NCBI GenBank assembly: GCA_929200485.1
Contig: CAKMZU010000030.1
Location: forward strand, 1-18,083
Direction: 5' to 3'
Length of the DNA: 18,083 nucleotides
From: an uncultured Gammaproteobacteria bacterium
Lineage (GTDB): Bacteria > Pseudomonadota > Gammaproteobacteria > Pseudomonadales > DT-91
Shown: positions 96 through 17,833 of the stretch, one piece after another
Numbering within the stretch: the first letter of the stretch is position 1
Layout of the letters: each line of letters starts with the position of its first letter
Program-made: the position numbers and the translations under genes
Notes under the pieces: generated by a model
What the model was told of the DNA's origin: nothing
Databases searched by the model: none
The model's input: the letters and a program-made list of their open reading frames with translations, nothing else

Positions 96-587
96 TTATT
101 TAGGCGAACAACGAAAAACAGGAATATCTCTGTCCGTTCGTGCCTGATATTCATCAAAGTCGGGGTAAAGGCTTAGTAAATGTGGCCAGATTTGAGCCTT
201 TTCTTCTGAAGAAATTTGCGTGGCGAGATACGCTTTGCTTTCACCGTTGACTAAAATTTCAATGTTCGGGTTGGCGGCAATATTGTTATACCATATAGGG
301 TTTTTGTTCATGCCACCTTGAGAAGCAACAAGATATTTATCATCGCCATGGGGTAGGTGGATTAATGGGATCTCTCGTTTCTTGCCGGATTTTTTCCCTG
401 TCATTGTCACTATACAAATCGGATAGCCGCCGGGAAAGTTTTTCATGAGCTTACCGTTTGTTTTCTTAAACACAAAAACATTCAAACGGGTATATAGCTT
501 AGTGATTGCACGTACCAGCCAAACCCACTTTTCGGGGATTTCGGCCACATCTTCTCGCTGGGTTTTCACGTAATCATATTTTTTCAT
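96..587 (-). CDS. Deazaflavin-dependent nitroreductase/quinone reductase family protein
   Basis: A small soluble protein of about 163 residues of the family that includes mycobacterial Ddn (split-barrel, F420- or flavin-binding reductases; PF04075-like). The family signature is visible: a TMTGKKSGKKREIPL segment followed by HGDDKYLVASQGG and NPIWYNNIAANPNIEILVNG, the usual strand-turn-strand layout of the fold. The frame can begin at a GTG at 608, but I prefer the ATG at 585-587 because a GGA-type ribosome site lies 7 bases before it, while the GTG has no convincing site. The gene stands alone on the minus strand, with the terminator of the next upstream gene separating them. F420 is not generally made by gammaproteobacteria, so the cofactor and substrate are unknown; FMN, heme or no cofactor are all possible. 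Family assignment is fairly sure, function is not. Confidence 0.8.
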   Translation of the reverse strand: MKKYDYVKTQREDVAEIPEKWVWLVRAITKLYTRLNVFVFKKTNGKLMKNFPGGYPICIVTMTGKKSGKKREIPLIHLPHGDDKYLVASQGGMNKNPIWYNNIAANPNIEILVNGESKAYLATQISSEEKAQIWPHLLSLYPDFDEYQARTDRDIPVFRCSPK

Positions 588-650
588 GTGTTTTTCCGGA
601 GTTACCACTTATTCTTGACTTTGTTATGGGGTCTTTCTGAACGGTTAGAG

Positions 651-753: not shown

Positions 754-2187
754 TTATTGAACAGCTTTTAGATCAGATTCCAGGTCGGTTGAGCCCTCGA
801 TAGTCCAGCCTTCCCACCAGGCTTCATCTTCATTCGGATCAATTGCACCGATGTAGTCGGTTTGTTCCAGATCCCCTTCAACAACAGTCTTGATAGTAAG
901 CTTTGCTGCGTCGCCTGCTAAAGCAAGGGTGTCGGTGAATACGACATTTGCATCTTCGAGCTTGGTCACTTCTGTGTCATAAGAAGCAGGCTGATCAATA
1001 TTTGATAATTTGATACCTTTAGATTCACACTTGCCGATTAGGATATTTTTAAAGGTTACTTGAGTATCTTCGTCTTTACCATTATCAACACGTAAGCAGT
1101 TGTGGTAGTTAACTGATAGGCTGTTGTAAAGGTTTACCTTAACATCGCCTCTGAAACGTGTTCCTGATTGCTCGCTTAGATTTTTTTCACCTGCGCCTGA
1201 ACTTGGTTCTGAACGAACTAAGTCTGAACCAATAATCGAAATATTGGATAAATAAGCCTGCGTTACTTTAACAGAATCTTCATCGGAACTGTTAGCTTCG
1301 ATTCCGCGAGGGTCGTTACTGCCTGTAGGGTAGTCCTTATTTTGATTTTTGATAATAAGCGCATATTGAATGCTGCCTTTGTAACCTTCGTCGAAATCTA
1401 AGTCGTCATCATCGTTATTCGTCAACACTGCATATTTTAAATTAGCTGTGCCGCCGAACCATTCGATACCGTCATCCAGGTTACCATGGACTTGGATGTA
1501 TTCAAGATTTGTTTCGCTGCCCACACCTTGAAGGGTTAAGCCATTAATTTCATTGCCTTCTGAAGCTTGATAACCACCTTCTGCGATAACAACATATTTT
1601 AATGTGCCGCTATAGTCTTTTTCGTCATCGCCACCAAAGTAAGCAACATTTTCTCCCCCTTCACCTTGTACGTTACAGTTGCCGCCTTCATGGCATGCTT
1701 TGCTTGTGCCAGGGCTGTATTGAGGTGCAAAACCTTGAATGATAATGCCTCCCCATTCACCAGAGCCGTCATAGTTTGAATCTTCTGAACTGAAGACGAT
1801 CGGCGCTGTTTTTTCGCCCGCAGCTTCAATTTTTGAGCCGCGTGTTACAATCAATGAGCCATCAGAATCTGCTTTGATTTCTGCGTCTTTTTCGATGGTT
1901 AATGTCACGCCATCATTGATGACTTTTTGAAGGTTGTCATCAGTGATTTCCTGATCACCGTTACCTACGTTGACTGTCCCTTTTAGTGTCCATGGTGCAC
2001 TGGCGTCAAGTGTCACATCTTCACAAATTCTTCCAGATATAACGCGGTTTTCTTTGTCAACTGACTCGTCAATGGATACGTTGCAGGCAGAATATGTTGA
2101 TGATGCGCTGCTGTCATTATTATCACCGCAACCTGCAAGCATGAGTGTACTCACAGAACTAGCTAAAAGGAGTTTTGAAAATTTCAT
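754..2187 (-). CDS. Outer-membrane lipoprotein, probable right-handed parallel beta-helix, partner of the TonB-dependent receptor
   Basis: A 477-residue lipoprotein. Residues 1-19 form a lipoprotein signal peptide ending in the lipobox LAGC with the acylated cysteine at residue 20. Position +2 is Gly, not Asp, so sorting to the outer membrane is expected. After a Ser/Asp linker the chain alternates short strands and turns rich in Gly, Asn and Asp (for example DGSLIVTRGSKIEAAG, SGEWGGIIIQG, GIEWFGGTANLKYAVLTNNDDDD), the look of a parallel beta-helix. An acidic DDDDLDFDEG stretch could bind calcium. The start ATG has an AAGGA site 7 bases upstream. It is the second gene of a receptor-lipoprotein pair: the receptor stop is about 115 bases before it and a terminator follows it. 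By analogy with other receptor/lipoprotein pairs it probably captures substrate at the cell surface; the substrate is not evident. Databases sometimes give such proteins unrelated names, so I assign no gene symbol. Confidence 0.8.
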   Translation of the reverse strand: MKFSKLLLASSVSTLMLAGCGDNNDSSASSTYSACNVSIDESVDKENRVISGRICEDVTLDASAPWTLKGTVNVGNGDQEITDDNLQKVINDGVTLTIEKDAEIKADSDGSLIVTRGSKIEAAGEKTAPIVFSSEDSNYDGSGEWGGIIIQGFAPQYSPGTSKACHEGGNCNVQGEGGENVAYFGGDDEKDYSGTLKYVVIAEGGYQASEGNEINGLTLQGVGSETNLEYIQVHGNLDDGIEWFGGTANLKYAVLTNNDDDDLDFDEGYKGSIQYALIIKNQNKDYPTGSNDPRGIEANSSDEDSVKVTQAYLSNISIIGSDLVRSEPSSGAGEKNLSEQSGTRFRGDVKVNLYNSLSVNYHNCLRVDNGKDEDTQVTFKNILIGKCESKGIKLSNIDQPASYDTEVTKLEDANVVFTDTLALAGDAAKLTIKTVVEGDLEQTDYIGAIDPNEDEAWWEGWTIEGSTDLESDLKAVQ

Positions 2188-2302: not shown

Positions 2303-5245
2303 TTAAAAGTTCATACTGATTTCTAGATCCCAGCCGGTTCCTTTGTAATACGACTCAGTCACCTTGTTATCTTTTTTATACTTAGTCGCTGGGTTGAATA
2401 GATTCGAGCCTTTGGCTTTAAGCTCAAACATCTCATTGATTTGCCATTGATAGACCAGATCAAGTTTCCATCGGCCTTCTTCAATTTTGTTAGGCGTAAA
2501 TTTTTCTACGCGGTAGATACGATCACTAAAATAATTACCAGAAAGGGACAAACTTTGCTCAGTTGTTAGGTGGTCAATGCCCAGCTGAATATTCGCCAGG
2601 AAATCAGATTGTCCCTGTAATTGACGAGAATCGTTGCTTTCAAACTCTTCTGATCGATTCTCATCTGATAGTGTCACTTCGGCATCAATATAGGAGAGGT
2701 TGCCTTTAGCAAAAGTAGCCCATTGGTCCATTTCAAATAAACTAACATCAAAGTCCAGTTCCAATCCCAAGATGGTTGCTTTTTTTTGGTTTCCGAACGT
2801 GTAGCCCTCGCAAGCACTTCCTGAGCATTTAAATTTTCCTATTTCTATAGGAGCATCGAGTATTTTATTAAATAAAGCTAAAGAGACTTGGTTTTTATCG
2901 TCAAAATAATACTCTGCTCGAATGTCCATATTTATGATGTCGGTTTTTTCGAGATTAGGTCGGCCATAGAATTCATCATCAGTCTCTGGGTCGTAAAATT
3001 TGGATGTTGAACGCTCCGTTAAGCCGGGTCTGGAAACAGTTTGGCTAATACTTCCGCGCAATTGCCATGCATCATCTATATACCAGGTTAATGAGCCAAT
3101 GGGCATAAGATCGCTGCTGTCAAATGTATTGTCTGCAATACTATTATCAGGGTATGCCAGGTTTTGCTCGTAATTCTCCATTCTTACACCCGCTAATAAG
3201 CTGACAGTGTCAGCTATATTGGACTCAAGAGATACATAGGCTGCAGTGAGTGTTTCGTCTGCAGTATAATTTGCATTGATCCCTGTTTTTTTGATAAGAG
3301 AGGAAGGTGTTTCTAAGGCTTCTTCTAATGTTTGACCTGCTTTGGTGTCGTTTGAGACGGCAAAACCAAAATTACCTATTTTTGCATCGCGATCTTTTGC
3401 GGAAATGTATGTGCCGACTTTTGCAATATTAGTAATCGATTCGCCTAAGTCGAAATTAATTTTATAATTTAGCGAGAAATCCATTGCGGATTCTGTCATG
3501 TCACCGAATCGGCGGTTAACTTCACTGAGGATGGGTAGCTGGCCTAAAATCGTGTAGGATCTTCGATCGGGTTCGTAACGGTTAGTTTGCCCGAAGGATG
3601 TAAACCAGTGGAGTTCTTGAGAGCCATCCAATAATTGGTGTTTGCCTTCAAATTGCTGTGAAAGATAAGTGTTTTCAATCCATTGAAGGATGTATTTTTC
3701 ACTTTCTCTTTCTTCTTTATCAGTGCCTTTGGTTACCTTTGTTGTGTCAGATGCCTGATGAAGGTAGATGGTTTTGCTGGTTACATCATGATTGTCGGTT
3801 TGATAACCTAAAGCGAGGTAACCAGACAAATCTGCATTATACGTTGAACGCTTGTAAGTGAACTTGCCTTCTCTATCATCTATAAAAGCTTCTCTTCTAG
3901 CTTCCCATCCGGAGTTATAACTTACTGCGTTATAAAAACTTAAATTACCATCGCCAATTTCAAAGCTATTGCCTAGAGAGTAAGACAATTTCATATCAGG
4001 CGTTGCTTTTTTGTTTTTAATTGCGTAGTTGTTGCTAAGTTCGTTTTCTAAGTTGAGGCTAGATGGTGGAGTTTCTCGACCAAAATTTGTTGCCTCATCA
4101 ATAGATTCAGGCAGTTTGCGTTCACCATCATCATAACCAAATATATCCGTACTGCCGCCATCGTAACTGACGACATTTTTACCTGTAACGCCTGAGGTGT
4201 AGCCTGTGCCAATAGTTAATTTTTGAGTGTATTCATCGGATGGCTTCTTGGTGACAAGATTAATTTGTCCACCTGTTGCAGTACCTAATAGTTCAGGTCT
4301 AAAACTTTTTTCAATTTCAATCCCCTCTAGAATGCTGGATGGAAAAATATCTAAGGCAACATCACGTCGAGTCGGGTTAAGGCTTGGCATCGCACCACCA
4401 TTTAATGTGGTTGCAATAAAACGCCCCTGTAATCCTCGAATAACGGCATATTTGCTGCCAACCAACGAGACGCCTGCAACACGCTTAAGTGCATCGCCTG
4501 CTGATGAATCACCAAATCGTGCCATGGCTTTGGCATCTAACACATCAACAACATTTAATGCAAAACGCTCTTTATCGACAAAATCGTTCGCTTTGTATTT
4601 GCCAACGACCTCAACTTCTTCAATATCGCCTTGCGCTTCACCAAAGCTAAAGTTAACGCTTTTATTAGCGAAGGCAACAACTCGGAAATTGTTAATGGAT
4701 CGTTCACCAATTTCAGGATGGTTAATTAGTAAAGTATAAATACCTCGAGGTGCATCCAGTTCGAAATAACCATCTGTATCAGTGGTGGCTGAAATGTCAG
4801 TTCCTTTAAGAGCTAGAGTTGCACCAGTCAGAGCGCCTGTATTGTTTGAGATGACTTCGCCTGAAATATAGCCTTCGGGTTTTTTGTCGTTTGTGTCATT
4901 GGTTGCTGAATAGCTATCAATAAGTACAGTTGGCTTTTCGCCTTCATTAATAACTACGCTAATGTCTGTGTTGTTATCGGACTTTTGATCAAAGCTAAAT
5001 GAAAAAACTGAAGTTTTGTCATTCGTTAAGATATTGACTTTGTGGGTGCCAGTTGCGAATGATTTATTTAGTGTGCCATTGGCGTCCAGCGGATAAATGG
5101 TTTCATTGATGCTGACAAGTTTGTCTGCCGCTGGGCGATCATTGATATACACATAAAGTGCCATCGATTCCGCAATGACTGTCTGGCCAAAGAGACACAG
5201 CGCAAACAGTGCCAAGCCTTGTTGAAGGCGTGATAGGGGCGTCAT
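2303..5245 (-). CDS. TonB-dependent outer-membrane receptor with N-terminal carboxypeptidase-regulatory-like domain
   Basis: A 980-residue outer-membrane active transporter. A signal peptide (about 1-25, cut near VIA/ES) is followed by a first small beta domain of about 85 residues (26-112) that I do not recognise with certainty. Next come a carboxypeptidase-regulatory-like beta-sandwich (about 124-203, with GEVISN, TDTDGYFELDAPRGIYTLLI), a candidate TonB box IEEVEVVG (208-215), a plug domain (about 225-337, with DALKRVAGVS, AVIRGLQGRF and GTATGGQINLVTK) and a 22-stranded-type beta-barrel ending in Phe (LEISMNF). Length is large but normal for receptors with N-terminal extensions. The ATG at 5243-5245 has a GAGGA site. 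No TonB or ExbBD genes are in the window, so energy must come from elsewhere. It is co-directional with the beta-helix lipoprotein and preceded by a Pho-like promoter, suggesting phosphate-controlled uptake. The ligand is unknown; it shows none of the neighbours expected of a siderophore receptor. Confidence 0.93.
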   Translation of the reverse strand: MTPLSRLQQGLALFALCLFGQTVIAESMALYVYINDRPAADKLVSINETIYPLDANGTLNKSFATGTHKVNILTNDKTSVFSFSFDQKSDNNTDISVVINEGEKPTVLIDSYSATNDTNDKKPEGYISGEVISNNTGALTGATLALKGTDISATTDTDGYFELDAPRGIYTLLINHPEIGERSINNFRVVAFANKSVNFSFGEAQGDIEEVEVVGKYKANDFVDKERFALNVVDVLDAKAMARFGDSSAGDALKRVAGVSLVGSKYAVIRGLQGRFIATTLNGGAMPSLNPTRRDVALDIFPSSILEGIEIEKSFRPELLGTATGGQINLVTKKPSDEYTQKLTIGTGYTSGVTGKNVVSYDGGSTDIFGYDDGERKLPESIDEATNFGRETPPSSLNLENELSNNYAIKNKKATPDMKLSYSLGNSFEIGDGNLSFYNAVSYNSGWEARREAFIDDREGKFTYKRSTYNADLSGYLALGYQTDNHDVTSKTIYLHQASDTTKVTKGTDKEERESEKYILQWIENTYLSQQFEGKHQLLDGSQELHWFTSFGQTNRYEPDRRSYTILGQLPILSEVNRRFGDMTESAMDFSLNYKINFDLGESITNIAKVGTYISAKDRDAKIGNFGFAVSNDTKAGQTLEEALETPSSLIKKTGINANYTADETLTAAYVSLESNIADTVSLLAGVRMENYEQNLAYPDNSIADNTFDSSDLMPIGSLTWYIDDAWQLRGSISQTVSRPGLTERSTSKFYDPETDDEFYGRPNLEKTDIINMDIRAEYYFDDKNQVSLALFNKILDAPIEIGKFKCSGSACEGYTFGNQKKATILGLELDFDVSLFEMDQWATFAKGNLSYIDAEVTLSDENRSEEFESNDSRQLQGQSDFLANIQLGIDHLTTEQSLSLSGNYFSDRIYRVEKFTPNKIEEGRWKLDLVYQWQINEMFELKAKGSNLFNPATKYKKDNKVTESYYKGTGWDLEISMNF

Positions 5246-5330: not shown

Positions 5331-5386
5331 AATATAGAGAATGAAGATGATGGTTTTGTAACAGTTGTGTTTCAGTATTGTTACAT
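5331..5386 (-). promoter_or_regulatory. Candidate PhoB-controlled promoter (four 11-bp repeats plus -10)
   Basis: On the minus strand, four consecutive 11-base units read ATGTAACAATA, CTGAAACACAA, CTGTTACAAAA and CCATCATCTTC (5386 down to 5343). Two of them match the E. coli pstS Pho-box (two 11-bp units starting CTGTCAT) at about 16 of 21 positions. The last unit keeps C..TCAT and is followed, after exactly 10 bases, by TATATT (5331-5336), the spacing known from Pho promoters such as pstS. It lies about 90 bases before the receptor start. No good -35 hexamer is present apart from the repeats, as expected for a PhoB-activated promoter. Confidence 0.6.
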
Positions 5387-10558: not shown

Positions 10559-11521
10559 GTGCCTCACCCCACGGTTGCAAAATTATCGGCATTAAGTGCT
10601 CAACTCACTGAGCAGGTCAGACGTTTGCCTCAAGATAAATGCCGATCAGTTTTAATGGTTGGTATTATCTTCATTGTCATTACTATTATCGGTAATAACT
10701 TCTGGTTTTTCTTCTCCTACGACGAAGTCACTCTTCCTCAAATTTCATCAAGACCCACCCAGTCAGCAAGCGCATCAAAGCAGCTCATTAGTTATGAAGA
10801 GGTAAAATCCTGGCAGTTATTTGGTGAAGAACCCCAAGTGACAGCAGAGGAAACAGAAACGCTTTTACCTCAGGTGACTGAGGAAGTAGATGAGAATGCC
10901 AGAGAAAACAGTCTTAATCTTCGCCTGGTTGGTATTATTAATGCCTCAGCCCCCCAAGAAGGTTACGCGATTATTCAACACGGCAGTGAAGCGGATTTAT
11001 ACAAAGTCGGTGACCCAATTCCTGTCGGCAACGATATCAGTCTGGCAAAAGTTTTAATTGATCGTGTGATCATAAATAATCGAGGAAATTTTGAATCATT
11101 AAAATTATTTGAGTCTGATAAGGTGCTGCCAGTAAAGCGTAGTGTACGCAAAGGGCCAGCAAAGGCACCGAAGACCTTAGATAAAAGAAACGACAGGCGG
11201 GTGACAGAGCTAATGACGGGATACCGCAAACAGCTTCTCAGCAATCCGATGTCGATGGCGAATGTCATACGTGTATCTTTAGCAACGGACGCCCAAGGTA
11301 ATACCATTGGGTATCGTGTTCGCCCGGGAAAGGCACGAAAAGAATTTGCTGAGCTAGGCTTAAGAAGCGGCGATATTATTACGGCCGTTAATGGGATCAG
11401 TTTATCCGATCAACAAAGTGCCATGCAGTTATACGGTAGTTTAGGCAGCTTGACCGAAGCGAATTTTGATATTAAACGTGGCAATAGTCATTTATCCATC
11501 TTAGTGAATTTATCGAATTAA
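10559..11521 (+). CDS. gspC: Type II secretion system protein GspC
   Basis: An inner-membrane protein of 320 residues that links the inner-membrane platform to the secretin. It has a short cytoplasmic N-terminus, one transmembrane helix (about 29-52, MVGIIFIVITIIGNNFWFFF) and a linker. The homology region follows (about 115-185, LNLRLVGIINASAPQEGYAIIQ with DLYKVGDPIP), which binds the GspD N0 domain. A C-terminal PDZ domain (about 230-318, GYRVRPGKARKEFAELGLRSGDIITAVNGISLSD) is thought to take part in substrate selection. The frame begins with GTG at 10559, which places the helix normally; the next Met (inside the helix) would remove the cytoplasmic part. gspD starts one base after its stop codon. 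Family and position agree, so the call is firm. Confidence 0.95.
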   Translation: MPHPTVAKLSALSAQLTEQVRRLPQDKCRSVLMVGIIFIVITIIGNNFWFFFSYDEVTLPQISSRPTQSASASKQLISYEEVKSWQLFGEEPQVTAEETETLLPQVTEEVDENARENSLNLRLVGIINASAPQEGYAIIQHGSEADLYKVGDPIPVGNDISLAKVLIDRVIINNRGNFESLKLFESDKVLPVKRSVRKGPAKAPKTLDKRNDRRVTELMTGYRKQLLSNPMSMANVIRVSLATDAQGNTIGYRVRPGKARKEFAELGLRSGDIITAVNGISLSDQQSAMQLYGSLGSLTEANFDIKRGNSHLSILVNLSN

Positions 11522-11522
11522 T

Positions 11523-13613
11523 ATGGGTTTATTTAACTTACGGACAATTACCTTGAAAACCTTTTTTACTCACAAACTATTTATTCTAGGCTTGGTGGCT
11601 TTGTCTAGTCTTGTGCTGGCTGAACCGATTGAGAGTGATTCGAATGGCAAGAGCGCAATTAATTTGCCTGAAGATAAAGAAGTCACCTACACCTTAAACT
11701 TCAAAGATGCTGACATAAAAGAGCTGATAAAGTTTGTTGCTGATACCACAGGTAAGATTGTCATTATTGATCCTAAGGTTAAAGGCAATATTGAGGTTAT
11801 CTCGAAAACGGAAGTCGGTGAGGAAGAATTATACGCCGTTTTCTTGAATATTCTTGAAGTCCATGGATTTACTGCCGTTGAAACTGAAGATAGCGATGTG
11901 ATTCGTATTATTCCTCAGAAAAACGCCAGGACCAGCGCGTTACCGGTTATTAAAGGCACAGCAACCATTGCTAACCCTGAATACGTGACCCAGATTATTC
12001 CATTGAAAAACGTCAATGCGTCTAAATTAATCCCTGTTCTTCGTCCGTTGATTCCTCAGCAGGGGCACATGGCCGCTTACACAGATACCAACAGTATTAT
12101 TGTTACTGATAACGCAAGCAATGTTGCCAAAATCGTCAAGATCATTAAAAATCTGGATCAGTCACCGCATAAAGATGTTGAGATTGTGAAATTGAAATAC
12201 GCTGCGGCTGATGAAATTACCAAGATGATCACCCAGATCAATAAAAACACAGGCAACAGTAAAAATCAGCCTGCTGAAGATTCTGTCGATATTGTGGCGG
12301 ATGACCGCAGTAACAGTGTTTTGTTGAACGGCACTTTGCAGGCGCGTGAACGCATCAAGAAAATTATCCGTGGTTTGGATGTTCAGCTGGCGCGCAGTGG
12401 TAATGCACAAGTTTTCCGTTTGCGTCATGCAAAAGCAAAAGAGCTGGCGCCTGTGCTTTCAAAAGTGGTGCAAAATATGGTGAAAATGACCGTCGATTTG
12501 AAGTCGAAGTCTGCATCACAAAAAAATGCCACCATCGAAGCGGATGCAGCGTCTAACTCACTGATTGTTACTGCCCAGCCCGATATTATGGAAAGCTTAA
12601 CTGGCTTGGTTCAGCAGCTGGATATCGCAAGGCAGATGGTTCTGGTTGAGGCCATCATCGCTGAAATTACCTTAAGTGATGACAAAGGATTAGGATTGGA
12701 TTTTCTATTCGCAGGTAAAAATTCAGGCATTGGTGGCTCGAATACCAGTGGTAATATTGGGAAGGCTTTTTCAGGTGCTTTGACTAGCAATACCGATGAT
12801 CAAGCAAAAGGCTTACTTGGAGGAATTGCTGGTATTGTTGGGGGGTTTGATTACAACCCAAACGGCAATTCATTTGGCGCGATTTTAACCGCGATTGAGA
12901 ATAATACGGATTCAAACATCCTGTCGACACCGAGCATCATGACCTTGGATAATAAAGAAGCCTCGATTGTCGTGGGCCGTCAGGTACCCTTTGTCACGGG
13001 TAGTTACACTTCTACGGGGTCGGGATCAAACCCGGGAAACCCATTCCAGACTATTGAACGAAATGATGTGGGTATTACGTTAAAAGTTACCCCGCATGTC
13101 AATAGCTCAGGGGAGGTGACGCTTGAAATTGTGCAGGAAGCCTCTGAAGCACCTGAAAGCAGCACGGGAACAATCGATCCCTCTCAGGTAGTGACGACTG
13201 AACGAAAAATTAACACCTCTGTACGGGTTAAAGACGGTGGTGTGGTGGTCTTAGGTGGTTTAATTCAGGATAAAGCGCAGGAGGTGGTGAAAAAAGTTCC
13301 GCTGCTGGGTGATATTCCAGTGATGGGGCATTTGTTTAAGAGTACAACCAGTACGACACGTAAAACCAATCTTGTGGTATTTATCCGCCCTAAGGTGATG
13401 GAAGATTCGTCAAGTGTAACCAATATTTCGAAGAAAAAATATCAACATATGCAGGCCAGTCAGGCAATGCAATATAACGAAGGCCTGGATTTCTTCCCCA
13501 AAGAACGTATCCCGGTATTGCCCGATTGGGAAGAGCAAATCCGAGCACTCGAAGGACCTGCTGGAAAGACAGACGGCATGTTCATTCCTGACCTTGATGT
13601 AGAAGCTCACTAG
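11523..13613 (+). CDS. gspD: Type II secretion system secretin GspD
   Basis: The outer-membrane channel of the type II system, 696 residues, forming a multimeric gated pore. The signal peptide covers about 1-33 (cut near VLA/EP). The N0 domain (about 52-125, YTLNFKDADIKELIKFVADTTGKIVIIDP) is followed by the repeated N1-N3 ring domains (about 150-370), each with the KLKYA/RLRHA-type start. The secretin barrel domain follows (about 385-615), with QMVLVEAIIAEI, the gate region, GITLKVTPHV and the hallmark VPLLGDIPVMGHLFKS starting at residue 592. A C-terminal S-like tail (about 630-696) would bind a pilotin; no pilotin gene is in the window. Start choice is supported by tight coupling to gspC; gspE follows 15 bases later with an AAGGCGG site. 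Everything looks intact. Confidence 0.97.
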   Translation: MGLFNLRTITLKTFFTHKLFILGLVALSSLVLAEPIESDSNGKSAINLPEDKEVTYTLNFKDADIKELIKFVADTTGKIVIIDPKVKGNIEVISKTEVGEEELYAVFLNILEVHGFTAVETEDSDVIRIIPQKNARTSALPVIKGTATIANPEYVTQIIPLKNVNASKLIPVLRPLIPQQGHMAAYTDTNSIIVTDNASNVAKIVKIIKNLDQSPHKDVEIVKLKYAAADEITKMITQINKNTGNSKNQPAEDSVDIVADDRSNSVLLNGTLQARERIKKIIRGLDVQLARSGNAQVFRLRHAKAKELAPVLSKVVQNMVKMTVDLKSKSASQKNATIEADAASNSLIVTAQPDIMESLTGLVQQLDIARQMVLVEAIIAEITLSDDKGLGLDFLFAGKNSGIGGSNTSGNIGKAFSGALTSNTDDQAKGLLGGIAGIVGGFDYNPNGNSFGAILTAIENNTDSNILSTPSIMTLDNKEASIVVGRQVPFVTGSYTSTGSGSNPGNPFQTIERNDVGITLKVTPHVNSSGEVTLEIVQEASEAPESSTGTIDPSQVVTTERKINTSVRVKDGGVVVLGGLIQDKAQEVVKKVPLLGDIPVMGHLFKSTTSTTRKTNLVVFIRPKVMEDSSSVTNISKKKYQHMQASQAMQYNEGLDFFPKERIPVLPDWEEQIRALEGPAGKTDGMFIPDLDVEAH

Positions 13614-13628
13614 AAGGCGGTACATCAA

Positions 13629-15203
13629 ATGTCTAAAGAACAAAACAATTTGTCTGATGAAACCCATGACACCCCGTTGGATATTCAGACTGATGGTGCA
13701 CCTCATGATGAATCAACTGGCTTTCAAGAGCCACAGTTCAAGGAAATCCCGTATCCTTATGCGTCAACGCATGGGATATTTCTAAAATCCAACGACGATG
13801 GCTATACCGCATTTTATAAAGATGGGCTGTTGCCTGATATTCTTTGTGAGGTCCGACGATTTGTTGGTGAGCATTTGACGCTTGAGCAATTACCTGAAGC
13901 AGACTTTCAAAAGCAATTATCCAAAGCGTATCAGCGTTCAGCGGATGAAGCTGTGCAAGCTGCGGAAGACATGAGCGATGATCTTGATCTCAGTCGCTTG
14001 GCGGATGAAATAAACGAAACTGGCGATTTAATGGATGCAGATGATGATGCGCCGGTGATTCGCTTGATTAATGCCATTTTGTCCCAGGCGGTTCGTGAAA
14101 ATGCATCAGATATTCATATTGAAACCTTTGAAAATGAGTTGGTAGTGCGTTTTCGCGTTGACGGTTCGCTTTATGAAGTATTAAAACCTAAACGCATGTT
14201 AGCGCCATTATTGGTGTCTCGCATGAAGGTTATGGCAAAACTCGATATTGCCGAAAAACGTATTCCTCAAGATGGTCGTATTTCGGTAAGAATTGCAGGT
14301 CATGCCATTGATATTCGTATGTCGACAAACCCTGTTGCGCATGGCGAGCGGATCGTATTGCGTTTGTTGGATAAAGATGCAGGGGCATTGAGATTATCTC
14401 AGCTTAAAATGACGCAACAAACGCTTGATGGTTATAAAAAATCCCTGGCTGCACCCCACGGGATTATTCTGGTGACAGGCCCAACCGGTTCTGGTAAAAC
14501 CACCTCGCTTTATGCCGGACTGACACATATCAATGAACCAAACAGAAATATTTTGACCATTGAAGATCCGGTTGAATATGTTTTGGCAGGGATTGGTCAA
14601 ACGCAAGTGAACCCTAAAGTCGGAATGACCTTTGCGAAAGGTCTTCGTGCAATTCTCAGGCAAGACCCTGATGTGGTGATGATTGGTGAGATACGTGATT
14701 TGGAAACCGCAGAGATTGCTGTTCAGGCAAGTTTAACTGGTCATTTGGTTATCTCGACCTTGCATACGAATACAGCCATTGGTGCGGTGACTCGTCTGGA
14801 TGACATGGGCGTTGAGCCATTTTTATTATCGTCAAGCCTGATGGCCGTGATGGCGCAACGTTTAGTGCGAACTTTATGTGAGCACTGTAAAGATCCTATG
14901 CATCCGAATGAGATTGAATGCAGGCTTTTAGACATTCCGTTTGAAAACTCTGAAAATGCAACCATTTATCGTGCAAAAGGCTGTGATAAATGTAATCAAC
15001 AAGGCTACCGTGGTCGTCTGGGTATTTATGAATTTATCGAGATTGATGATACCTTGCGAAAAATGATTCATGATCGTGAGCCCGAGCAGGTGATGACGGA
15101 CTATGCACATACCAAAGCACTGTCGATTCGTAATAACGGGTTTAAACAAGTCTTGCAAGGCTTAACGACGCTCGAAGAAGTGCTTAGGGTGACCTCGGGA
15201 TAG
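13629..15203 (+). CDS. gspE: Type II secretion system ATPase GspE
   Basis: The cytoplasmic hexameric ATPase that powers pseudopilus assembly, 524 residues. An acidic, poorly conserved N-terminus (1-40) leads into the N1E/N2E domains that contact GspL and GspF (about 40-270, including DAPVIRLINAILSQAVRENASDIHIE). The C-terminal RecA-like domain has Walker A GPTGSGKTTS (284-293, Lys290), the Asp box LTIEDPVEY, Walker B DPDVVMIGEIRD, and the His box TGHLVISTLHTN. The four-cysteine zinc site of true GspE proteins is complete: Cys417, Cys420, Cys452 and Cys455. This separates it from PilT-type ATPases. gspF begins four bases after the stop codon, so translation is probably coupled. Confidence 0.97.
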   Translation: MSKEQNNLSDETHDTPLDIQTDGAPHDESTGFQEPQFKEIPYPYASTHGIFLKSNDDGYTAFYKDGLLPDILCEVRRFVGEHLTLEQLPEADFQKQLSKAYQRSADEAVQAAEDMSDDLDLSRLADEINETGDLMDADDDAPVIRLINAILSQAVRENASDIHIETFENELVVRFRVDGSLYEVLKPKRMLAPLLVSRMKVMAKLDIAEKRIPQDGRISVRIAGHAIDIRMSTNPVAHGERIVLRLLDKDAGALRLSQLKMTQQTLDGYKKSLAAPHGIILVTGPTGSGKTTSLYAGLTHINEPNRNILTIEDPVEYVLAGIGQTQVNPKVGMTFAKGLRAILRQDPDVVMIGEIRDLETAEIAVQASLTGHLVISTLHTNTAIGAVTRLDDMGVEPFLLSSSLMAVMAQRLVRTLCEHCKDPMHPNEIECRLLDIPFENSENATIYRAKGCDKCNQQGYRGRLGIYEFIEIDDTLRKMIHDREPEQVMTDYAHTKALSIRNNGFKQVLQGLTTLEEVLRVTSG

Positions 15204-15207
15204 TCTC

Positions 15208-16437
15208 ATGGCAGCATATAGTTATCAGGCGCTTGATAGCAAGGGCAAGAAGGTTAAAGGGATTCTTGAAGGGGATTCCAGTCGTCATGTCCGTACACTC
15301 CTGCGCGAGAAACATCTAAGGCCGCTTGAAGTTGAATTGAGTGGTGAGACCAGCAAACAGTCTGAAGAAAAACAACGTTCACTTTTTTCAGGTTTTTCTC
15401 GCGTTAAGATGAGTACGAGTGAGCTGGCACTTTTCACCCGCCAGCTCTCCACATTGATATTGTCAGGGCTACCCCTTGATGAATCAATGAAAGCGGTTGC
15501 GCAGCAAACGGAAAAACCCCGTTTAAAATCTATGGTGCTTGATGTTCGTACCAAGGTGCTTGAAGGGCATTCATTGGCTTATGCATTAGGTGGCTATCCT
15601 AAAGTCTTTGATGGCATGTACCGTGCTATGGTCAATGCCGGTGAACAAGCCGGTTTTCTGGGTGTGGTACTTGAGCGTTTGGCGGATCATACTGAGAGCA
15701 GCCAATATACCCAGCAAAAAGTGAAATCCGCTATGGTCTATCCGATCATTTTGATGATTGTGGCGTTTGCAGTAATCACCGGGTTGATGGTGGGTGTTGT
15801 CCCGGATCTGGTAAAAGTCTTTAACTCGCGTGGCGCGGAATTGCCTCCTTTAACACGCGGTTTAATATGGACGAGTGATTATTTGGTTAATCATGGTTTT
15901 ATCACTTTGCTAGGCATTCTAGGTGGAATTATTGCGCTTCAACGTTTTATGCAAACACCAGCAAGGCAAATGTGGTGGGGAAAGATGAAGCTTAAGTTGC
16001 CCCTGGTTTCTAAGATTGTCCGTGCAGCTGAAACGTCGCGCTTTTCCAGTACGTTAAGCATGCTGGTTGCCAGTGGTGTCCCGCTTTTGCAAGCCATTAG
16101 AATTTCTGCCGCCGTTTTAAATAATCCGCATCTAAAAGCACTTTGTCAGGAAGTGGCTTTGAGTGTTCAGGAGGGTGGGAGTTTTGGTAAAGCCCTTGGT
16201 AACACGGGCGCATTTCCTCCGCTATTTGTACATATGGTCTCCAGTGGTGAGGCCAGTGGTGAGTTGGAGGCGATGCTGGCCAAAGTTGCACAAAATCAGG
16301 AACGCGAATTAGAAATGACACTGACTTCGTTGGTCAGTGTTTTAGAGCCCTTAATGATCGTCATGATGAGCGGCATTGTGATGACTATCGTAATGGCAAT
16401 TTTGCTGCCTATTATGGATATGAATACACTCGTTTAA
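15208..16437 (+). CDS. gspF: Type II secretion system inner-membrane platform protein GspF
   Basis: A 409-residue polytopic protein around which the pseudopilus is built. A short N-terminal segment MAAYSYQALDSKGKKVKGILEGDS is typical of the family. Two homologous cytoplasmic T2SSF domains occupy about 70-193 and 273-395. Each has the conserved pattern FTRQLSTLILSGLPLDESM or FSSTLSMLVASGVPLLQAI, and then GEQAGFL or GEASGEL. Three membrane helices are visible (about 175-197, 225-245 and 380-405). Order and spacing (gspE 4 bases before, gspG 13 bases after with AGGAGA) are canonical. Length is standard and no defect is seen. Confidence 0.96.
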   Translation: MAAYSYQALDSKGKKVKGILEGDSSRHVRTLLREKHLRPLEVELSGETSKQSEEKQRSLFSGFSRVKMSTSELALFTRQLSTLILSGLPLDESMKAVAQQTEKPRLKSMVLDVRTKVLEGHSLAYALGGYPKVFDGMYRAMVNAGEQAGFLGVVLERLADHTESSQYTQQKVKSAMVYPIILMIVAFAVITGLMVGVVPDLVKVFNSRGAELPPLTRGLIWTSDYLVNHGFITLLGILGGIIALQRFMQTPARQMWWGKMKLKLPLVSKIVRAAETSRFSSTLSMLVASGVPLLQAIRISAAVLNNPHLKALCQEVALSVQEGGSFGKALGNTGAFPPLFVHMVSSGEASGELEAMLAKVAQNQERELEMTLTSLVSVLEPLMIVMMSGIVMTIVMAILLPIMDMNTLV

Positions 16438-16450
16438 CAGGAGAAAAACA

Positions 16451-16885
16451 ATGAAGTCTCTGCAAATTCAGCGCGCTCGTGGTTTCAGCTTAATCGAAAT
16501 CATGGTGGTTTTGGTTATCATCGGCCTTTTGGCATCCATTATTGGTCCCCGTATTCTGGGTACGGCAGAAGATGCACGTAAGAAAAAAGTGCTGGCAGAT
16601 TTTGCCAATATTCAAACCGCATTGAAACTCTACAAGCTGGATAACTATGTTTACCCTTCAACAGAGCAAGGTCTTCAGGCATTAGTCGAAGAAACCACTA
16701 TTGCGCCCGTACCTAAAAACTTTAAGGATGGCGGTTATATGGAAAAATTACCGAAAGATCCTTGGGGGAACGATTATATTTATGTGTCTCCAGGTGATCA
16801 TGGTGACTTTGATATTTATTCCCTGGGCGCTGATGGGCAAGGGGAAGAAACACTCATTGGTAACTGGCAAACCGATCAGAAGTAA
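16451..16885 (+). CDS. gspG: Major pseudopilin GspG
   Basis: The main subunit of the type II secretion pseudopilus, 144 residues as precursor. A short basic leader ends in Gly11, and prepilin peptidase should cut before Phe12 in RARG/FSLIEIMVVLVIIGLL. Glu16 is the conserved fifth residue of the mature chain, and the hydrophobic helix runs to about residue 35. The C-terminal globular part holds YPSTEQGLQALV, DPWGNDYIY and the calcium-site loop GDHGDFDIYSLGADGQ, all GspG hallmarks. A strong AGGAGA site lies 7 bases before the ATG. The prepilin peptidase gene is not in the window. Confidence 0.97.
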   Translation: MKSLQIQRARGFSLIEIMVVLVIIGLLASIIGPRILGTAEDARKKKVLADFANIQTALKLYKLDNYVYPSTEQGLQALVEETTIAPVPKNFKDGGYMEKLPKDPWGNDYIYVSPGDHGDFDIYSLGADGQGEETLIGNWQTDQK

Positions 16886-16926
16886 CTCTAAAATACGCTT
16901 AAGCACCCACTATCTTGAAGTCAGCC

Positions 16927-17532
16927 ATGAAGCCAGCTATTCGACGTGTTAAAGGATTTACTCTGATTGAGTTGCTGGCAGTCCTGGTGATTATAGGGCT
17001 GGCTGCCTCCTTGACCGTTATCTCTTTGGGCAGGGGATTCGGTTCTGATAATCTTGATACCTTTACAAAACAATTTAGAAATACGTTGGCTTTTGCTGCT
17101 GAAGAGGCGGTACTGTTTCGTCATCAGGCTGGGGTTATTTTTGATCTTGAGAATATCGATGACGAAACCCGTTACACCTATCAATTTGTCATTCTTGATG
17201 AAAAGGTGAACCGTTGGGCTGAGAGTGAAGACCCTGATTTGAAAAAAGGTTACTTTCCACCCGATATTGAGTTAGAAATTGATGTGGAGGGTGAAGAGCT
17301 GACCATTGGTGCTCAAAGAGAAGCGAAATTTTTTATCTCCAAGAAAAAATCGGATGGCAAGGATGAAGAAGGGAAGTCTTTAGTGCCAGATGTTATTTTC
17401 TTCTCCAGTGGTGAAACGCAATCTTTCGTTATGACGTTGCGAACCACCAAAGGCACTCAAAAGGAATATAAAATCTCTTCAAGTATTTTAGGGCAGATCA
17501 CCGTAAAGCAACTGGGAGATGATGATGCCTAG
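16927..17532 (+). CDS. gspH: Minor pseudopilin GspH
   Basis: A minor pseudopilin of about 201 residues. The frame is open from a TTG at 16915, but I choose the ATG at 16927: GAAG lies 6 bases upstream of it, and the leader then has the usual length, MKPAIRRVKG/FTLIELLAVLVIIG with cleavage after Gly10 and Glu15 as the conserved Glu5 of the mature chain. The rest is a beta-rich globular domain (for example VLFRHQAGVIFDL, YTYQFVILDE). A Lys/Glu/Asp-rich insertion (around KKKSDGKDEEGKS) probably forms an exposed loop; GspH is the most variable pseudopilin. Its final codons overlap the start of gspI, implying coupled translation. Confidence 0.92.
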   Translation: MKPAIRRVKGFTLIELLAVLVIIGLAASLTVISLGRGFGSDNLDTFTKQFRNTLAFAAEEAVLFRHQAGVIFDLENIDDETRYTYQFVILDEKVNRWAESEDPDLKKGYFPPDIELEIDVEGEELTIGAQREAKFFISKKKSDGKDEEGKSLVPDVIFFSSGETQSFVMTLRTTKGTQKEYKISSSILGQITVKQLGDDDA

Positions 17533-17833
17533 ATTGTCTTCCGGAAAGCGGCATTCGAATAAACAAGCCCAGCAGGGTTTTACCTTAATTGAAGTTATGG
17601 TGGCAGTTGCTATTATCGGCGTGGCTTTGCCAGCGCTGATTATGAGCCTTTTAAGGCAAGTCGATAGCATCGCTTATGTGCGCGATAAGCTAGAGTCACA
17701 ATTAGTGGCTGCCAATATTATGACAGAGTTGCGCATACGCAACGAATTAACAGGAGAAATTCCTAAAAAAGAGCAAGGACAAAAGCCAATGGGGGAGCGG
17801 GTATGGTTTTTCGAAACCGATTTTAAAGAATAA
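17525..17833 (+). CDS. gspI: Minor pseudopilin GspI, N-terminal part (frame interrupted)
   Basis: A minor pseudopilin whose frame stops after about 102 residues, short for a family that usually has about 120-130. Three ATG codons stand in a row (17519, 17522, 17525). GGGAG at 17514-17518 gives a good distance only to the last, so I use 17525. The prepilin segment is clear: QAQQG/FTLIEVMVAVAIIG, cleavage after Gly18 and Glu23 as the conserved Glu5. The globular part runs normally through LVAANIMTELRIRNEL and GERVWFFETDF, where GspI proteins have a Trp-rich strand, and then meets TAA at 17831. The missing last strand is found in the +1 frame downstream. GspI forms the pseudopilus tip with GspJ and GspK, so a truncated protein would probably be inactive. 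Confidence 0.85.
   Translation: MPRLSSGKRHSNKQAQQGFTLIEVMVAVAIIGVALPALIMSLLRQVDSIAYVRDKLESQLVAANIMTELRIRNELTGEIPKKEQGQKPMGERVWFFETDFKE

Follow-up and report, generated by a model that had tools for sequence, protein, structure and literature searches.

A putative PhoB-box array ahead of an ElpS-type TonB receptor and lipoprotein gene pair in an uncultured gammaproteobacterium

The receptor and lipoprotein genes

The window (the whole stretch of 18,083 nucleotides that was analyzed) carries on its minus strand the genes for a TonB-dependent receptor and an ElpS-like lipoprotein, with four Pho-box-like units and a -10-like hexamer ahead of the receptor gene (Table 1). The start of the lipoprotein gene lies 115 bp past the receptor stop codon, and its own best upstream box scores only 10.1 bits. 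The receptor matches Pfam PF13715, PF07715 and PF00593, all over cut-off; its match to TIGR01782, at 192 bits, is under the cut-off of 310.

Table 1. Coordinates of the features in the window, with matrix scores for the 7-mers of the array
Feature	Position	Strand	Description
Pho-box unit 1	5376..5386	(-)	ATGTAACAATA; 7-mer 6.3 bits
Pho-box unit 2	5365..5375	(-)	CTGAAACACAA; 3.8 bits
Pho-box unit 3	5354..5364	(-)	CTGTTACAAAA; 5.8 bits
Pho-box unit 4	5343..5353	(-)	CCATCATCTTC; 0.1 bit in the window
-10-like hexamer TATATT	5331..5336	(-)	10 nt past the unit 4 7-mer CCATCAT
TonB-dependent receptor	2303..5245	(-)	980 aa; CarboxypepD_reg-like domain, plug, beta-barrel
ElpS-like lipoprotein	754..2187	(-)	477 aa; lipobox LAGC at residues 17-20; predicted right-handed beta-helix
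F420H2-dependent quinone reductase-like gene	96-608		3' of the lipoprotein gene; kept in locus L099
T2SS genes	10559-17833		gspC, D, E, F and G by Pfam, then pseudopilin-like ORFs

The lipoprotein matched nothing in Pfam or NCBIfam, and none of the Pfam families, SusD included, was reached at E values up to 0.001. Among the matches listed from a large protein collection, 120 relatives carry the precomputed Pfam assignment PF28492. The closer named relatives include proteins from a Cellvibrionales MAG (51% identical) and a BD1-7 clade bacterium (50%), which points to a source among gammaproteobacteria of this sort. A confident structural model gave a fold match by which the lipoprotein is predicted to be a right-handed parallel beta-helix of the pectin-lyase type; a sequence comparison with solved structures gave no relative at E values up to 1. 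Protein P0165 of Caulobacter endophyticus aligns with the window lipoprotein at 32% identity over 432 columns (E 8e-51), and it is on P0165 that the ElpS-type assignment rests. Judged by sequence, the pair is of the ElpS/CC0171 type and so a member of a known family. The sequence-only reading had called the operon uncharacterized, a label that does not hold, given this 32% identity to an ElpS relative from Caulobacter and the published reports of phosphate-starvation induction among its kin.

A search with the lipoprotein yielded, among the matches listed, 80 loci in named genomes (577 confirmed). Both genes were recognized in 69 of these, always on the same strand and in 66 cases with a gap of less than 500 bp. 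The 74 lipoproteins counted in loci L145-L224 contain one (23 proteins), two (44) or three (7) copies of the domain. In one protein of 637 aa, P0236, a PstS-like piece (PF12849) precedes the lipoprotein domain. This may be an artefact of gene calling or a frameshift, but it would put pstS directly before the lipoprotein gene.

The Pho-box array

Four contiguous 11-base units had been claimed for the minus strand, and we located them there: the strand from 5386 to 5343 consists of four units in 11-bp phase, followed by ATTCTC and by TATATT at 5336-5331. The accompanying claim of exactly ten bases before TATATT holds if the count starts right after the 7-mer CCATCAT; after the complete fourth 11-mer, the distance is 6 nt. 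The -10 hexamer (5331) is 85 bp from the receptor start (5245). PhoB promoters, according to two papers, have 7-bp direct repeats separated by 4-bp A/T-rich spacers and strict spacing to the core promoter, and in Escherichia coli the PhoB box usually replaces the -35 element (PMC4971064, PMC10294691). Compared with PhoB-activated promoters as described there, the window array has four units rather than two, most of which are off consensus.

The array was scored with a PhoB matrix trained only on the pstS and phoB upstream regions of relatives, with receptor promoters left out. Training used 57 of 60 loci (three were dropped for want of a usable ORF) and gave 52 sites with the consensus CTGTCATATAACTGTCAT; on the wrong strand, 12 of the 57 training regions also scored above the same threshold. 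Two sets of control upstream regions, of 185 and 753 sequences, were used for box scoring, mostly with a threshold of 12 bits. The controls still include some true Pho genes, which makes comparisons with them conservative.

Taken as a single 18-mer, the best window site scores 13.1 bits, a value reached by 10 of the 185 control upstreams (fraction 0.054); a preliminary matrix, partly trained off target, gave a shuffle p of 0.085. A strict single-box pattern run across the draft genome (512 contigs) found 8 matches, the same number as its reversed control and thus chance level, and the window site was not among them. One 18-mer is not distinctive in this AT-rich genome, and we discarded the single-box score as proof of a PhoB site. 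The phased array is another matter. Three phased units together score 15.9, matched by none of 1000 dinucleotide shuffles and 3 of the 185 controls, and four score 16.0, matched by none of 1000 shuffles and 2 controls. As one 18-mer the window site is marginal; as a phased array it is clearly above chance. Scoring with a PhoB matrix, proposed with the sequence-only reading as a check, therefore came out in its favor for the array, with the single 18-mer weak. Given that single boxes occur at chance level and the window site is not matched by the strict pattern, we base the argument on the array and its conservation and not on any one box.

Conservation within the genus

Four other genomes of the genus were available. 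Three have the receptor gene, and the fourth, 84% complete, gave no match. The promoters of the three (L099, L098 and L106) align with the window gap-free and unit by unit through all four units, with flanks that are poorly alignable. The counterparts of unit 1 are TTGTAAC (L099), ATGTAAT (L098) and ATGTCAT (L106). All four aligned promoters have TGAAA in unit 2 and CTGTT in unit 3. Unit 4, which adds next to nothing to the matrix score in the window and 0.7 bit in L099, is CCGTCAT in L098 and L106, where, at 8.1 bits, no other unit outscores it. The -10 counterparts (TAAAGT in L099, TATAGT in L098 and L106) all follow the last 7-mer at a distance of 10 nt. Since L098 and L106 closely resemble each other here, the comparison amounts to about three lines of conservation and not four. 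The weak units vary by species, as if the array shares out PhoB affinity.

These results bear on two other explanations of the array. The first is that it arose by chance or has decayed, and that the operon is not under phosphate control in this organism. The weak single-box score and the chance frequency of single boxes in the genome would fit such an explanation, but we consider it highly improbable in view of the array statistics and the retention of array and -10 hexamer across the genus. The second is that another regulator binds an inverted repeat, TGTAACA-N15-TGTTACA (5385-5379 and 5363-5357), and that PhoB does not act here through direct repeats. In the window TGTAACA and TGTTACA, from units 1 and 3, are indeed complementary at all 7 positions. 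Only 6, 5 and 4 of the 7 positions are complementary in L099, L098 and L106, respectively, whereas the units there keep their direct-repeat phase and their distance from the -10 hexamer, and we give the inverted-repeat explanation very little credence. Sites for Fur, TyrR and CRP/FNR were rejected: in the window and in five relatives, their consensus strings, compared by string match, did no better than in shuffled sequence. Binding of PhoB to the direct repeats remains the reading we prefer.

Boxes ahead of related receptors

At the order level, boxes of 12 bits or more lie upstream of 13 of 17 receptor genes (the window counted), whereas 12 of the 185 control regions contain one (p 4e-9, Mann-Whitney test). 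The more distant of these receptors are about 29-37% identical and may not all be orthologues; L108, with a receptor gene truncated at the end of its contig, is left out of the set. The lipoprotein was found by blastp in 13 of the 16 other loci; the contigs of L107 and L109 end inside the receptor gene. In L110, a 25.8-bit box lies 33 bases inside the longest ORF, and blastp gave no lipoprotein match. Four of the 17 are below 12 bits, and the receptor genes of L111 (8.0 bits) and L112 (-2.1 bits) are not preceded by a box. The L112 receptor gene comes after the lipoprotein gene and a TonB cluster, so that a box may have to be sought elsewhere than at the receptor start.

Among the 69 named loci with both genes, 65 could be scored (gap of less than 1500 bp and enough upstream sequence). 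A box of at least 12 bits was present in 52 of the 65, and in only 38 of the 753 control regions (p about 1e-26, Mann-Whitney test); 13 units fell below 12 bits, and on the opposite strand of the same 65 stretches 14 scored at least 12 bits. The loci are mutually related, and the p-values of both comparisons therefore overstate independence and are not true probabilities. We also surveyed the distance from the last called unit to a -10-like hexamer in 51 units with a box of at least 12 bits, using a fixed background and no gap filter. With 40 offsets compared, the commonest was 10 nt (11 of 51 boxes); the second commonest, 32 nt (8 of 51), equals 10 + 22, or two further 11-mers. The window geometry is the common geometry of related boxes. 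A comparison of the regions upstream of related receptor genes had also been suggested as a check, and it found the boxes conserved both in congeneric genomes and in wider relatives.

As a negative control we took 15 TonB receptors that are more distant, and they failed in that role: 5 of the 14 that could be scored (L030, L031, L032, L033 and L034) are preceded by a box of 12 bits or more, a rate well above that of the general controls. Boxes are accordingly not confined to the receptor group of the window. Either these distant receptors are also phosphate-controlled, or the matrix scores regions upstream of receptor genes too liberally. L030 and L031 (G017:C18 and G058:C4) each have an 18-bit box; they belong to one genus and are not independent. 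The L030 receptor adjoins phoB and pstS, and receptors of the L030/L031 type may be another phosphate-controlled group.

Pho and TonB genes in the genome and around the pair

The draft genome encodes PhoB (G000:C47; 336 bits, cut-off 296.2) and has PhoB-type boxes ahead of phoB (22.0 bits), pstS (20.3 bits) and a phosphate-selective porin gene (16.8 bits). The porin gene (PF07396; L095:12865-13974) precedes pstS, and its box suggests that passive and TonB-type routes across the outer membrane may coexist.

Genes of the pst, phoU, phoB or phoR type were found by blastp in 24 of the 80 listed named loci, in flanks of up to 10 kb per side and with thresholds of our own choosing, some of them lenient. 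With one or two pst/pho clusters per genome of about 4 Mb, chance linkage would be estimated at about 1/100. The PstC query (L095:9739-11607) was named by its position and blastp and has no Pfam match; all 24 linked loci would still count without it, and a few, such as L155 and L221, rest on a single weak match. In the Porticoccaceae, pstC-pstB-phoU (L150) or pstB-phoU (L156) lie beside the pair, and in Alteromonas (L174) phoB-phoR-pstS are near it. Further regulators adjoin the lipoprotein gene. In L103 and L108 it is followed by a second PhoB-type regulator that scores over the family cut-off (L103:14110-14853, L108:5431-6147), and in L160 a response regulator with receiver and winged-helix domains (11367-12077) lies just 3' of it.

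TonB, ExbB, ExbD, DUF3450 or TPR-type genes occur in 27 of the 80 listed named loci by blastp. In L102, which belongs to the window's own family, Pfam confirmed DUF3450, two MotA/ExbB proteins, ExbD and TonB, and boxes precede the receptor gene (20.8 bits), the lipoprotein gene (16.7 bits) and the DUF3450 gene (21.6 bits). In L242 the first gene of the DUF3450 cluster has a PhoB-type box of 18.1 bits, and the receptor/lipoprotein pair is not on the same contig. The DUF3450/ExbB/ExbD/TonB cluster may be a private motor of the importer. Clusters of DUF3450, MotA-ExbB, ExbB, ExbD, TonB and TPR genes were seen at L102:573-4454, L100:12646-17723, L174:15712-20753 and L242:417-2551. An ExbB1-like gene of the window's own genome, on a short contig (G000:C386, L239), has two in-frame stops, from decay or an assembly error.

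Comparison with ElpS and with SusCD-type systems

Among the closest known systems is a pair in Caulobacter crescentus. As reported in one study, ElpS is made under phosphate starvation and is encoded beside a TonB-dependent receptor; its overproduction was accompanied by higher activity of secreted alkaline phosphatase, and its release required the type II secretion system (PMC2996285). By RT-PCR, for which that study does not show the data, the receptor gene cc0171 was constitutive, which counts against the phosphate-starvation reading, although elpS was induced (PMC2996285). The window pair resembles ElpS (CC0170)/CC0171, so described, in the receptor gene next door, T2SS genes in the wider vicinity, the probable link to phosphate starvation and the position of the lipobox, which is at residues 17-20 in both lipoproteins (PMC2996285). 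It differs in order and control: in the window the receptor gene comes first with the box ahead of it, whereas in Caulobacter, to judge from the gene numbers, the receptor gene is second to that of the lipoprotein, and it is the one reported as constitutive (PMC2996285).

The T2SS genes also differ in position. In the window gspC (Pfam T2SSC) is on the other strand, 5.3 kb from the receptor start, and dus and oad-type genes separate the pair from the gsp genes, unlike in Caulobacter. Its upstream region has no PhoB box (2.7 bits). The order in L099 is gsp, oad, dus, receptor, lipoprotein and F420-type reductase. A Phenylobacterium locus (L190) contains a lipoprotein gene, an 864-aa receptor ORF (11149-13743), a gspC (T2SSC) with a 20.3-bit box and a GspD-like gene.

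These neighbors are relevant to a further possibility, in which the array would be a PhoB target but the lipoprotein would be mainly an accessory to a secreted phosphatase, released from the surface, with the receptor functioning separately. The reported Caulobacter findings on alkaline phosphatase and T2SS-dependent release are consistent with such a role, as are the T2SS genes in the window, their presence in 10 of the 80 listed named loci and the box of the Phenylobacterium gspC. The unvarying same-strand adjacency of the two genes and the 27 loci with TonB/ExbB/ExbD-type neighbors fit import instead, and we regard the accessory role as unlikely, though worth bearing in mind.

A second point of comparison is in the Bacteroidota. 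In Flavobacterium johnsoniae, according to a study of that organism, Fjoh_0545 (a TBDT) and Fjoh_0546 (lipoprotein FII) are induced by Pi depletion and cluster with phoBR, and Fjoh_0546 is related to the Caulobacter protein and to structures like those of pectate lyases and polygalacturonases (PMC8115612). The window pair is like Fjoh_0545/0546, so described, in combining a receptor with a lipoprotein. The study also describes PusCD/SusCD-type complexes, induced by Pi depletion, in which a TonB-dependent gate works with a surface lipoprotein (PMC8115612). Unlike SusCD systems, the window pair has a lipoprotein that lacks a SusD Pfam match and is predicted to be a beta-helix. In open-licence PubMed Central, searches on DUF3450 with phosphate, TonB receptor with PhoB and Alteromonas, and ExbB and TonB with phosphate starvation turned up nothing that we recognized on the gammaproteobacterial pair.

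Proposed mechanism and significance

We think it very probable that the four-unit array is a PhoB-driven phosphate-starvation promoter of the receptor and lipoprotein pair, which would serve the import of a phosphorus compound. Our confidence is kept despite the failed control with distant receptors: what counts for the window is the array, together with its retention within the genus. The assignment to the phosphate-starvation regulon made by the sequence-only reading is supported, as judged from sequence: array statistics, conserved boxes, linkage to pst and phoB and the published induction of relatives agree.

When phosphate is low, phosphorylated PhoB would bind the array at 5386-5343, stand in for a -35 element and recruit sigma-70 RNA polymerase to the -10 hexamer. 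The receptor and then the lipoprotein gene would be transcribed, most likely as one operon. The receptor is most likely a TonB-energized gate in the outer membrane, and the beta-helix lipoprotein is most likely its surface-exposed partner, which would capture a phosphorus compound or help to release it. Uptake of such a compound by the pair is likely, the transport role being deduced from the family and the neighboring genes.

More tentatively, and with rather less than even confidence, we suggest that an import machine of this kind is widespread outside the Bacteroidota. It would consist of a TonB gate, a lipoprotein of one to three beta-helix domains in a SusD-like capture role, and a PhoB-driven TonB-ExbB-ExbD/DUF3450/TPR motor. 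The window pair itself is a well-supported new example and not a new kind of system. It belongs to a mostly unnamed receptor/lipoprotein family, found here mainly in marine gammaproteobacteria, that its promoters tie to phosphate starvation across many genera. The prediction that follows is that phosphorus compounds would pass the outer membrane of these bacteria actively, driven by TonB.
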